NCBI GenBank assembly: GCA_016858145.1
Contig: JAEHOE010000140.1
Coordinates: forward strand, 186,001 to 250,000
Direction: 5' to 3'
Source: Edaphochlamys debaryana
Lineage: Eukaryota > Chlorophyta > Chlorophyceae > Chlamydomonadales
Length of the DNA stretch: 64,000 bases
Position numbers and translations under genes: made by a program. Below the pieces are notes generated by a model. The model was not told where the DNA came from, did no database searches, and saw only the letters and a list, made by a program, of their open reading frames with translations. Positions 2,608 through 60,409 of the stretch are shown piece by piece; within the stretch, counting starts at the first letter, position 1; each line of letters opens with the position of its first letter.

Positions 2608-5600
2608 CTGTGGGAGTGAAAGGGAGCACGCATAGTGAGTTGCCGATACATGGTGAAAGTGAAGCAACCCAAGCAAAGGCACAAGCATAAGCTTGCCTCC
2701 TGCTGCCCCTATGCCATGCCCACATGGGACTGCCCTCAAAGCACCCCTGCACCCTTGACCCGCTCACCTCAGCCTCCGCCTCCGCCTGCTCCTCGCCCTC
2801 GCCGTCAGCTGCCTCCTCGCCCTCAGCCGCCTCCTCGCCGGCCTCGGCCTCGGGCTCTGCCTCCTCGCCAGCCTCGCGCTCGGCAGCCTCCTCGCCCTCC
2901 GCCTCGGCCTCGGGCTCCGCCTCGTCGCCAGCCTCGCCCTCGGCCTCAGCCTCGGCCTCCGCCTCGGCCTCGGGCTCTGCCTCCTCGCCAGCCTCGCCCT
3001 CGGCCTCCGCCTCGGCCTCGGCCTCGCCCTCCGCTGCCTCCTCGCCCTCCGCCTCGGCCTCGCCCTCCGCTGCCTCCTCGCCCTCCGCCTGCTCCTCCTC
3101 CTCGTCCTGCTTCTCCTCGGCCTCGGCGGCCTCCTCCTCCGCCTCCTTGTCAGCAGCCTCCTCCTCGGCCGCCTCGTGCTCGGCCTCCGCCTCGGGCTCG
3201 GCCTCGGCGGCCTCCTCCGCCTCGGCCTCGGCCTCGGGCTCGGCGGGCTGCTCCTCCTCCTCGGCCTTCTTCTTGGACTTCTTGTCCTTCTTCTCTTTCT
3301 TCTCCTTCTTGTCCTTCTTGGGCTTATCCTGTGTAGCAAGGGGCGCGGGAGGAAGGGACGCGCAGCTTTCAGACAACAGATGACAACCAATACATGTACT
3401 AGTTGGCACAACAGGCGACAGCTAGTACAGGGACGCAACAGGTTGAAGCCAGAGACCTTTGTGCTCGGATTCAGCTGCTGCAGCGGCTCATGCGAGCGGA
3501 GCCCACACGGTACAGCTACCGGTACCCACGCGCGCAGTCAGGGGTGCTGCTAGGAGCTGCCCCTCGCCCTACACACAACTACGGCGTACGGCACACGCCC
3601 TGAAACCCCGACATCAGGTCGGCCCGGAGCCCTCGGGCGCCGCCATTCCCACCAAGCTCCAACTAGGGTACTCACCGCCTTGCCCTCGCCCTTGGCCTTC
3701 TTGCCGCCCGTGGGCTTGCCGTGCAGCACCTCGCTGAACTGCTCCGACAGCGCGGCGGCCTTGGCCGTGTCGGTGTTGGCAGGCGGCCGCGCGACCTGCA
3801 GGGGCGGATGGGCGGATGGGCGGGTGCAGGCGGGGTGAAGGGTGAGGCCGTGAGCACGCGCCTGGAGCCACGCAGGGCGTAGCGCCTTCAGCTGCTGCGT
3901 GCAGCATGCACCGCGTCGCTCAATGCAGCCCTTGCACCAACACTGCCAAGGCACTAGCACCGTCATGGCATGAACAAGGAGGCGACAAGCACCCGCTGAC
4001 AGGTCCCCTTGCACCAACACTGCCACTGCCACTGCCACTGCCACTGCCTCTGCCAGGGCAAGGCTACCTGCCCAGCGTTCATGCACCCCGCTCAAGCACG
4101 CCCAAACACACGCAGAGTCCCGCGACACGCCCCGTCAGCGCCGGGTGCTCACCTTGGGCTTGGGCGAAAGGTTGTAGGCCGCGGGCCGCGGCGGCGGCGG
4201 CGGGGGCGGCGCGGAGCGCTCCTTGGTGGCCGGCGGCGAGGGCGGCTCGCGGCGGCGCGTCTGCACGGGCGAGCGCCTGCCGGACGGCACGTAGGTGGTG
4301 GGGCCGGGCGGGCGGCGAGCGTTGCCGTAGAGCTGCTTGAGCTGCATGGCGTAGGCGTCGATGATGGCCTGAGCGCGGGGGTTGGAATAGGGGGTAGGGG
4401 GTGGGGGGTGGGGGGTGGGGTAGGATTAGGCCGGGGTTCCGGAGGTGGTGCAGGGGCTGCATGCAAGGGATGCAGCTACGCCGAGACGGCTGGCCAGGCG
4501 TGGATGAGGCAGCAGGACGCAACCAGCAATCCCTCGGCCCCCGCTGTCCTTCTGCCGCTTGACCCGCCCCAAGCAGCCCCTGGAAACCGCCTGAACGCCC
4601 CCCTCCCAAACCCCATCCCCACCTGGCGGTCCACGGCCAGGCCGCCTGCACAGGCCTCACCTTGCCCCCTCGCCTCCTTTCTCCCGACAGTCCCTTTGCC
4701 CGCCCCACCCCCCGAGGTCCCCCCCTCCCCCCCCCCATCCCCACCTGGCGGTCCACCGCCACCTGGTCGGCGCCGTCCAGCACCAGCAGCTCCCTGCGGA
4801 GAGCAAGGCACACAGGACAGGTGCAGGGGTGGTGAGAGACGGTGGTTGATAGCGTCCGATCCTACCGCTCGCAGCGCACAGCCCAGGCGTGTGCACACGG
4901 CGCAGACAGCACACCCGGCCCCATCCCGCCATCCCAGTCCCTCGTCCCCAGTCCTCTTCCCGCCCTCAAGCCCCCCGTCCCCCACCCTCCTCCTCCCCAC
5001 CTCTTCTCCGCGTCCGCCACCAGCACCTCCCCCCAACCCCTTACCCCCACCTGTACAGCCCCCCCCCCCCCCCCCTCTACCCCCCAACCCCTCCCAAACC
5101 CCACCTCTTCTCCGCGTCCGCCACCAGCAGCTCCTCCGTCATGCGCTGCAGCAGCCCCCGCACGCCCTCCACGCGCTCAGACAGGCGCGCGGCGGCGTCG
5201 GGCGGCGGCGCGTCGGCGGGCAGCAGCGGCGGGAAGCCGCAGTCGGACGACAGGCGCGCGGCCTCGGTGTTCATCTGTCTCCGTTGGGGGGGGGGGGAGG
5301 GGCAGGGGCGTCATGACGGGCTCAGTTGTGGTTCCAGCCGGCACTGGGGATTTTCAAGCTCTATCGGTGCATCCCTCCCATTAACGATGACCGCCAGGGT
5401 TGTGTGGCCAGGGTTGCCCGGCCTCCGTGCAAAGCCGCATCATCTTTAAAGCTTAGCATCCGGGCGGTAGCATCCGGGCCCATGTAACCGCATGCCGGCC
5501 CACCTGGTCGATCATCCAGTTGACCAGGTTGAAGTCAGCCTCCACGTTGTCCAGCACGGCCTGGGGGGGTGGGGGAGGGAGGGAGGGGCGGAAGAGGGGA

Positions 5601-59000: not shown

Positions 59001-60409
59001 GGGATGGAGGGCTGGCAAGAGGGGGGTGTAGGGTGGTGGCGGCCGGGATGCGAGCCGCACGCGAACCTGGGTCAAACAACGGTTACGTTGGCCGAACCAG
59101 AGCGCGCCCTTGACTCCAGCTTGCCCTGTGCTCACCTGCCCTTTCACCCCCCCCCCCCTCCCCCCGCCCTAACCTAGGTGTAAGGACACTGCGGGCCGCG
59201 TGGAGTCGCAGCTCAAGATGGTGATCCGGCCCATGTACTCGAACCCCCCCATGCACGGAGCGGCCATTGCGGCCAAGGTCCTGGGGGACGCCCGGCTGAG
59301 GGAGATGTGGAGGGTGAGGGGGCGTGGGGGTGGGGGGAAGAGGGGGTGGGGAGAGATGGCCTGGATAGGATGGTGGGCGGACGGGGAGAGGAGAGGGGGG
59401 ATGGTGGCAGCTGGCAGGTGACGGAGGGGGATGCCGCGGGTTGTTGAAGCCACCCCCTTCCAACCTGACCCCTTCCCCCCCCCCCCTCCGCCTCCCCCCC
59501 CTGTCAGGTGGAGCTCAAGGGCATGGCCGAGCGCATCATCTCGATGCGGCGGGCGCTGTACGACGCACTGTACGAGCGGAACGTGCCGGGCGACTGGTGA
59601 GCCGCACGGGCAGAGAGTGGGCTGACAGGGTTAGTGACCATTCAAATCCAATCAAGTGAAGCATCGTCTGTGCCACTTCGTGATCTGGGATCTTCAAACC
59701 AGCTTGGAGCCTGGACAGCCAGGCCTCTCAGCAACTGAGCAACATCCCACACATCCCCCAACCCACCCCCACCCCAACCCAACCTCAACCCCAACCCCAC
59801 CCCAGCCGACCCCAACCCACACCCAACCTACCCCCAACCCAACCCCAACCCCGACCCCAACCCCAACCCCAGGTCGTTCGTGCTCAAGCAGATCGGCATG
59901 TTCTCGTACACGGGTCTCTCGCGGGTGCAGTGCCAGAAGCTGGTGAGGCGGGGGGGGGCGGTGAAGAGGGGAGCCTGCGGGTGTTTTGGTGCTGGGTGTG
60001 CACAGGGGCGGGGTGTGGCGGGTGCAGTGCCAGAAGCTGGTGAGGCACCCCCTTTGGGGGGGGGAGGAGGGGGTAGGGTAGCCTCCATGTGCGGGCTGCC
60101 AGTCTACACGGCTTATTGGTCGGGGTGAGGGGGGGCGGGGAGTTGAAGGCAGCTGCCTAACTCGCTTGGACGCGGAGAGTGCACGTTTCTCCCAACCCCA
60201 AAACCCACCACCCTCGATCCCTTGAAACCCACCTTAAACCCTCCCCCACGCACCCCTCTCCTCCCCCACCCCTATCCACCCCCTGTCAGGTCAACAAGTG
60301 GCACATCCACCTCACCCTGGACGGCCGAATCTCCATGGCCGGCCTGTCGGCCCAGAAGGCGCCGTACCTGGCCGACGCCATCGCTGACGTGGTCGCCAAC
60401 CCGCAGTAG
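56043..60409 (+). CDS. aspartate aminotransferase (class I, PLP-dependent)
   Basis: Transfers the amino group between aspartate and 2-oxoglutarate, linking nitrogen assimilation to the malate-aspartate system. Eleven exons (56043-56138, 56537-56611, 56947-57064, 57583-57713, 58146-58285, 58552-58627, 58772-58917, 59178-59313, 59508-59596, 59873-59942, 60290-60409) give 398 aa and a stop; the N-terminal exon upstream is uncertain. Conserved blocks run in order: [90 protein letters not shown], then [18 protein letters not shown] with the PLP lysine (residue 244 from 56043), [24 protein letters not shown] and DGRISMAGL. It resembles subgroup Ia enzymes of mitochondria and cytosol. Compartment cannot be decided without the N-terminus. 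Introns contain copies of exon edges. Confidence 0.92.
57036..57300 (+). repeat. three tandem copies of the exon 4 end and donor (aspartate aminotransferase)
   Basis: The true exon edge (ggccaccgtgcaggcgctgt, donor at 57065) is repeated twice more with 110-bp spacing, at about 57147 and 57257. The repeat unit also carries gtgtgtatggcacgcacggg. Confidence 0.92.
59757..59870. repeat. AACCCC/AACCCCA-type tandem repeat in an intron
   Basis: About 110 nt of imperfect accccaacccca units lie directly upstream of the acceptor at 59872 in the aminotransferase gene. It resembles telomere-like simple sequence but lacks the TTTTAGGG unit of Chlamydomonas telomeres. Confidence 0.8.

Follow-up and report, generated by a model that had tools for sequence, protein, structure and literature searches.

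Copies of exon edges within the adjoining introns of the green alga Edaphochlamys debaryana

Do introns lengthen by copying the edges of the exons beside them? The question is raised by a window of 64,000 nucleotides (nt) from the green alga Edaphochlamys debaryana (contig JAEHOE010000140.1, positions 186,001 to 250,000; G000:C140:186001-250000 in our own numbering). An earlier note on this DNA, made from the sequence alone, described short stretches straddling exon-intron junctions that reappear inside the adjacent intron in six genes, and proposed a genome-wide tandem duplication of segments of about 100 base pairs (bp) as their source. We find that such exon-edge copies are real, repeated and unevenly spread, and that they are concentrated in introns rich in runs of G or C.

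Counts, controls and distribution of the copies

The published E. debaryana assembly, built from PacBio data with Illumina polishing, is given as 142.14 Mb in 527 contigs with an N50 of 0.73 Mb, and the genes of the deposited annotation were called with BRAKER and RNA-seq (PMC8226300). The genome that we searched comprises 141.89 Mb in 502 contigs, and counts were made on a sample of 344 kb in nine contig blocks. Genes were predicted with a two-strand gene finder written for this analysis and self-trained on the sampled DNA; those that passed the score cut number 52, with 535 introns. The median intron length was 211 nt in the first seven blocks; the published median is 198 nt (PMC8226300). 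The exon chain predicted for aspartate aminotransferase agrees with the deposited protein, the best database match to a query of 395 amino acids being HYH03_016367 of E. debaryana, 100% identical over the full query. A methyltransferase to the left of the window also agrees with its deposited protein, except for a false mini-exon of four amino acids and for a separate decoy mini-exon, which was taken out of the query before the database search.

The last (or first) 30 bases of each exon were compared without gaps with the adjacent intron at a score of at least 28, leaving out exons shorter than 30 nt and introns shorter than 80 nt. Both donor and acceptor junctions are copied, as the earlier note had held. 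Donor edges recur in their own downstream intron in 27 of 472 cases, compared with none of 472 with the intron shuffled, one of 472 with the intron reversed and 3 of 9,440 when paired with other genes' introns; pairing with introns farther away in the gene itself gave 6 of 8,776. Exon starts recur in the intron before them in 11 of 478 cases, with one match in the reversed control, none after shuffling, 1 of 9,560 with other genes' introns and 3 of 8,746 with the gene's own more distant introns. At a score of at least 32 no other-gene pairing matches for either kind of edge (0/9,440 donors, 0/9,560 acceptors), which bears out the statement that each copy matches only its own exon, unlike introner elements. 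Donor copies exceed acceptor copies (P 0.008), as would be seen if an additional upstream acceptor were worse tolerated. The pattern persists when the window is excluded (donors 16/371, acceptors 6/375 at the same score), and the window is richer in donor copies than the rest of the sample (11/101 vs 16/371, P 0.026).

Within the window a more permissive survey was made (ungapped score of at least 25, match +2, mismatch -3, queries of at most 40 nt, copies non-overlapping). It yielded 34 copies at 25 junctions, with 23 of the 34 offsets from source to copy between 70 and 155 nt, compared with a background of 0.0028 copies per query-intron pair in 2,180 control pairs. These figures match the earlier estimate of at least 20 copies lying mostly 70-155 bp away. 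Doubt attaches to three of these junctions. A predicted mini-exon at 32325-32353, itself a repeat unit, accounts for two of them, and the third (48113-48141) is a coding repeat of the CCACCG type. The copies are unlikely to be artefacts of assembly, the outcome that would have undone the earlier claim, because the genome was assembled from PacBio reads and polished with Illumina data (PMC8226300) and because donor copies differ from their own exon by 8% on average.

The distribution of the copies follows the base composition of the introns. Donor matches are found on C140 (20/215), C2 (4/16), C1 (2/56) and C200 (1/10), and are absent from the blocks on C10, C20, C30, C60 and C90 (0/175). Acceptor matches are found on C140 (9/219), C1 (1/56) and C60 (1/80), with 0/123 elsewhere. 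The copies are not spread evenly through the genome, as five of the nine sampled blocks lack donor copies. When introns were divided into quartiles of 118 by the G-runs in their first 120 nt, donor copies numbered 0, 2, 3 and 22. Similarly, acceptor copies by quartile of C-runs in the last 120 nt were 0/120, 0/119, 1/119 and 10/120, with no link between acceptor copies and G-runs at the donor end (P 0.76). This concentration is what run-linked instability would produce. Four of the five blocks without donor matches have a low run content, and run content accounts for most of the unevenness between blocks. In agreement with the suggestion that the copies lengthen introns, those with donor copies have a median length of 390 nt vs 210 nt for those without.

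Copies along the window

Among the six genes named in the earlier note, copies were identified in the coiled-coil, RanBPM-like, SNF2/ISWI-like and aspartate aminotransferase genes and, weakly, in GPDH; besides these, one doubtful gene model contributed to the survey. The pyrophosphatase gene has none above threshold, the best of its eight edges scoring 20 (10418-10432 vs 10300-10314).

In the aspartate aminotransferase gene (AspAT, plus strand), the exon end at the donor is copied at three junctions: 56120-56138 recurs at 56243-56261 (score 33, offset 123), 57033-57064 recurs at 57144-57174 and 57252-57283 (scores 62 and 64) in a 108-bp tandem array spanning 57033-57315, and 59921-59942 recurs at 60018-60039 (score 44, offset 97). 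Exon starts at acceptors are copied at 57583-57597 (copy 57511-57525, score 30, offset 72) and 58146-58178 (copy 58019-58051, score 41, offset 127), the spacer between source and copy being single-copy in the genome in the latter case.

Two exon ends at donors are copied in the coiled-coil gene (minus strand), one at 5105-5137 with its copy at 5001-5033 (score 56, offset 104) and one at 4745-4761 with its copy at 4623-4639 (score 29, offset 122) and a spacer that is again single-copy in the genome. The long exons of this gene at 196-3328 encode a degenerate protein repeat, over which Tandem Repeats Finder (TRF) returns many overlapping rows. The RanBPM/SPRY gene (plus strand) has an exon end region at 16639-16668 copied at 16711-16740 (score 30, offset 72), an exon part ending 14 nt short of the donor at 16932-16955 copied at 17051-17074 (score 33, offset 119), and an exon end at the donor, 17764-17785, with copies at 17865-17883, 17979-18000 and 18094-18111 (scores 38, 39 and 31; offsets 98, 215 and 330).

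The SNF2/ISWI-like gene (minus strand) carries copies along its length. In the merged gene model that contains it, a donor exon end upstream of the SNF2 part (45330-45355) has copies at 45243-45268 and 45153-45169 (offsets 87 and 177), and another in the 3' part (31294-31314) has copies at 31210-31228 and 31116-31136 (offsets 86 and 178). Between these lie three further exon ends at donors. That at 43123-43144 recurs at 43002-43023, 42881-42902 and 42647-42668 (offsets 121, 242 and 476), with a 121-bp tandem array at 42828-43144. That at 34750-34785 recurs at 34634-34669 (score 42, offset 116; spacer single-copy in the genome), and that at 33416-33441 recurs at 33266-33291 and 33195-33218 (offsets 150 and 223), with a third match at 32837-32861 (offset 590). 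Exon starts at acceptors are copied from 40599-40628 to 40734-40763 (score 45, offset 135) and from 36394-36418 to 36531-36555 (score 35, offset 137), and an exon start region from 35397-35423 to 35501-35527 (score 34, offset 104). At 32027-32442 a tandem array of 4.2 units of 100 bp with 99% matches starts 27 bases inside the exon at 31963-32053 and repeats its acceptor.

The weak GPDH copies (minus strand) concern an exon end near the donor, 52317-52334, copied at 52229-52246 (score 26, offset 88), and an exon start near the acceptor, 52356-52376, copied at 52470-52490 (score 27, offset 114). A predicted intron of the same gene holds a 40-bp repeat in 4.3 units at 51696-51870.

The gene finder is known to merge neighbouring genes and to call several exon-edge copies mini-exons, the latter because the copies carry splice sites together with coding-like sequence. 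Such calls on the minus strand are 32325-32353, 35189-35221 and 37098-37118, and a duplicated junction can accordingly resemble a complete small exon. In a pattern check of six SNF2 proteins from relatives, two mini-exon segments, one of them GK..LD, were single wherever they were found, in four proteins each. A database search with SNF2 gave no E. debaryana protein among the 40 matches listed.

The window also contains a pair of paralogous genes in tandem (21481-24041 and 25851-28434). Introns 1 and 2 are 99-100% identical between them, the other three introns 85-93% and four larger or later exons 80-92%, a pattern that suggests a partial recent conversion or duplication.

Origin of the copies

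The dimensions of the copies were determined for the 38 sample cases scoring at least 28 (27 donors, 11 acceptors). Source and copy lie 67-163 nt apart in 30 of them, and in every one the exon part of the copy measures 15-54 nt. Donor copies fall into two groups by the length of their intron part, 12 having 0-7 nt and 15 having 22 nt or more. Donor cases diverge by 8% in the exon part vs 13% in the intron part, as expected if only the copy decays in the former and both sides decay in the latter. GG is enriched where the copies end on the exon side (48% vs 18%), an observation that was set aside because alignments creep into G-rich sequence.

Part of the set shows tandem structure. TRF detects contiguous homology in the arrays at 32027-32442, 42828-43144 and 57033-57315, and junctions with several copies show near-even spacing (offsets 87/177, 86/178 and 121/242). 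If a copy were part of a tandem unit, the spacer should resemble the sequence after the copy, and this comparison was made for the 32 cases whose spacer reaches 30 nt and ranked against mismatched pairs. The spacer beats 80% of mismatched pairs in 12 of the 32 and 95% in 7, and the set as a whole leans towards resemblance (Kolmogorov-Smirnov P 0.03). Simple tandem duplication was rejected as the source of every case, since the other 20 spacers have no convincing homology downstream. Of the earlier proposal, recurrent local duplication stands, whereas tandem units appear to hold for no more than a part of the set. Some third of the cases resemble true units, and the remaining two-thirds or so would be short copies with unrelated spacers.

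These short copies bring in a different explanation, in which staggered breaks or templated insertion by Pol theta would create a patch duplication, with a short direct repeat flanking unrelated filler, so that the copy lies outside any tandem unit. This would fit the 20 spacers, the spacer lengths of 38-155 nt in 27 of the 38 cases, the copy lengths of 15-75 nt in 33 of 38 and the small exon share throughout. It would also fit the AspAT spacer at 57065, which has 25-37 nt in common with intron sequence of the SNF2 gene, 22 kb away (35118-35154 and around 35473), as copied filler would. A 24-nt sequence, GTGTGTATGGCACGCACGGGCGGG, lies in the spacers of the AspAT array at 57112-57135 and 57220-57243 (plus strand) and in SNF2-like introns at 35121-35144 (minus) and 35473-35496 (plus), once in each orientation there. 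It has five matches in the genome at up to two mismatches, four of them in the window, and may represent a local transfer between repeat-bearing introns of the two genes. However, multi-copy junctions are nearly evenly spaced and several spacers are homologous to what follows. Genome-wide searches found all three spacers tested to be single-copy, so that no outside donor is shown, and fully exonic sources are rare, although templated insertion should make them too. Patch duplication is a less likely alternative, to which we gave slightly more weight, at the expense of the explanation favoured below, because of the spacer sequence common to two genes.

Mobile elements, introner-like or other, might instead carry exon edges with them or trigger duplications on insertion. 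Compared with the 344 kb sampled, a minor fraction of the genome, 28 of the 32 spacers have no repeat at all and four match an intron of another gene. Two of these four hold a dispersed repeat; the others match another gene's intron, the 57065 spacer strongly and that at 5104 weakly (on C1). The 24-nt core of the dispersed repeat, TGTGAAGGGCTGCTCGCATGAGCC, has 489 genome matches at up to two mismatches, including copies in the C140 blocks on either side of the window (at -2838, 87683 and other positions in its coordinates), and 20 copies were fetched as loci L030-L049. The end of the repeat after the core is variable, and short flanking direct repeats were recognized by eye in 7 of the 20. All seven sample copies at up to three mismatches lie in predicted introns, six in the gene sense. 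Our guess is that the repeat may be a truncated retroelement read from a fixed end; an Rfam search with three loci carrying it returned no match.

At two of the 20 loci, L047 (C13) and L032 (C2), an exon-edge-like copy lies beyond the dispersed repeat, as a carrier element might leave it: by eye, a direct repeat spans the element and ends at or near the exon-donor boundary, scoring 99 and 30 compared with 18 and 19 in reversed controls. The exon part at L047 seems to be longer than those of the 38 cases counted above. The two loci are likely independent sightings of the exon-edge pattern. A mobile origin is nevertheless highly improbable. The copies match no other gene, the dispersed repeat has short flanking repeats of its own and so resembles an independent insertion, the shared sequence of the 57065 spacer has few genome matches and nearly all of them are in the window, and most spacers contain no repeat in the sample. 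A shared element as the cause was rejected, with the dispersed repeat in two spacers, matches to other introns in two more and three others single-copy.

Is the junction itself special? A census of local duplications in the sample, from which the coding repeat of the coiled-coil gene and pairs of low complexity were left out, gave 82 pairs with offsets of 60-180 nt. Compared with random placement under a complexity filter, 34 pairs cross a junction where 8.6 are expected, 23 are intron-intron (20.5 expected), 6 exon-intron (15.4) and 3 intergenic (22.8). When the run content of the spacer was matched, the expectations became 13.3, 21.2, 20.5 and 16.0. The junction excess of about fourfold is thereby reduced to 2.6-fold (P 1e-6), and outside the window 16 run-matched junction duplications were found vs 7.1 expected (P 0.003). 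The junction share of 34/57 agrees with expectation (0.56, P 0.60) if exon-matched pairs are assumed to stay detectable for twice the time, an assumption made because a conserved exon partner should slow the decay of the pair, and one that the 8% vs 13% divergence fits. We did not adopt the junction as a hotspot, noting that its excess is gone only with this assumed factor of two, and a junction-directed process is not claimed. Of the earlier idea that duplication takes place at junctions, the junction-crossing copies remain, and a preference for junctions holds only if the assumption is dropped.

The same census bears on a process coupled to splicing or transcription, such as co-transcriptional R-loop breaks or nicks at intron starts, that would duplicate junctions and actively lengthen introns from their edges. 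The junction excess, whether or not run-matched, and the scarcity of intergenic duplications (3 vs 16.0) are what such a process should leave. However, the junction share is as expected under the assumed detectability, and pairs joining a wholly exonic copy to an intronic one are rare (6 vs 20.5), which argues against exon sequence being copied as such. We regard a coupled process as rather unlikely. It is also doubtful, and somewhat more so, that transcription- or splicing-coupled duplication at junctions, sparing intergenic DNA, lengthens introns, adds to the long introns of Chlamydomonas relatives and supplies splice sites for new isoforms and mini-exons.

The explanation that we favour, and hold to be probable though far from certain, is ordinary local duplication in intron ends rich in G- or C-runs, with the junction-crossing products hidden by splicing. 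Recurrent duplications would arise in G-run-rich 5' and C-run-rich 3' intron ends, carrying 15-54 nt of the neighbouring exon over distances of mostly 67-163 nt. G-runs, as DNA prone to G-quadruplexes or R-loops, may cause breaks, and repair through fill-in and end-joining, or through template switching, may then make the duplication; small tandem duplications from break repair have been demonstrated in mammalian cells (PMC8355091). A duplication crossing a junction would leave the outer exon edge undamaged, along with its splice site. With the spliceosome using the outermost donor or the last acceptor, the additional copy would stay intronic and decay neutrally. Introns would grow in this way, splice sites would be doubled and minisatellite arrays would form in some places.

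Several observations weigh against this explanation. The introns of block C30 (16 donors) are rich in runs and have no donor match, and run-rich intergenic DNA has no duplications in 25 windows. Intergenic duplications are scarce even after run matching, which a cause residing purely in DNA structure does not explain, and duplication could itself have made these introns rich in G-runs, reversing cause and effect. Without the assumed detectability the junction share exceeds expectation (P 0.0015). The exon parts of 15-54 nt seem too short, as uniform tandem breakpoints would give longer ones, and plain tandem duplication predicts neither the 20 spacers without convincing homology nor the sequence that the 57065 spacer has in common with another gene's intron. 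Those 20 spacers lack homology even though the introns of the paralogous pair, which was not picked for G-run content, remain alignable.

Splice sites, precedents and intron growth

The copies leave decoy splice sites, as the earlier note anticipated. The dinucleotide is intact in 22 of the 27 donor copies (21 GT and one GC), lost in four and unmapped in one; for acceptors it is intact in 8 of 11, lost in one and unmapped in two. Selection for functional alternatives might have kept these sites. However, we estimate that chance alone, at the identity observed, would leave about this share of donor decoys intact, donor decoys are weaker by 1.9 score units on average, and offsets show no bias towards the reading frame (multiples of three in 12 of 38), as expected if decoys are seldom used. 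In both genes checked against deposited proteins the outer splice site is used, with one AspAT isoform as the exception.

This isoform speaks in favour of selected alternatives. The aminotransferase locus tag has two database proteins, of 408 and 481 amino acids. The longer, the annotated isoform P0002, contains an in-frame insert of 73 amino acids that is the translation of 57065-57283 (plus strand), 219 bp or 73 codons of intron retained by splicing from the third donor copy. The insert is lacking in all five aligned relatives. Alternative isoforms called by BRAKER are expected to derive from introns seen in RNA-seq. Short reads may be misplaced here, however, because the first and third donors are preceded by the same 32 nt of exon sequence. 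Duplicate splice sites may sometimes be used, and it is very improbable that selection on them explains the copies as a set.

An event of this kind is already known from one potato gene. In the potato RdRp gene, a tandem duplication spanning a splice junction takes in the intron end, acceptor and exon start, and the copy inherits the splice signals (Ma, Lan and Niu 2016, PMC4974935). As described there, a single gene is involved and a new intron is created, whereas in E. debaryana 38 junctions in 344 kb are affected and existing introns are lengthened. Intron gain by AGGT tandem duplication (the Rogers model and the Hellsten test; PMC3443670, PMC4974935) likewise multiplies splice sites by local duplication; the segments in E. 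debaryana already hold a used splice site, and no new intron position is shown. Introns gained in Daphnia through staggered break repair are described with a short direct repeat around unrelated sequence (PMC3443670), as in part of our cases. Here, however, the repeat pair consists of an exon edge beside an intron already present and a copy inside that intron. Duplications of tens of bp at break ends, made by CST/Pol alpha-primase fill-in or Pol theta end-joining, offer a concrete repair route; they concern induced breaks in mammalian cells, and the portion of that report considered here draws no link to introns or G-runs (PMC8355091).

Intronic minisatellites are a known kind of head-to-tail array, and the arrays at 32027-32442 and 42828-43144 resemble them, except that they begin inside an exon and that a splice site forms part of their units; many other cases are single decayed copies. 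Introner elements differ in being common to different genes and in inserting as whole new introns, whereas donor copies lie inside introns of median length 390 nt. Among the papers listed in searches of open-access PMC literature, none was seen to describe recurrent exon-edge copies in introns, or their scale or run dependence. The earlier remark that no named description exists is thus qualified by the potato precedent, as far as PMC4974935 describes it, and stands, within these searches, for scale and run dependence.

Relatives of Chlamydomonas have conspicuously long introns, the cause of which is left open where Craig et al. (2021, PMC8226300) discuss them. Exon-edge duplication would be a measurable source of intron growth, tied to base composition. 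Introns in which two near-identical donors or acceptors compete provide natural tests of splice-site choice, and the in-frame AspAT isoform is a candidate for a duplicated decoy turning into an alternative protein.

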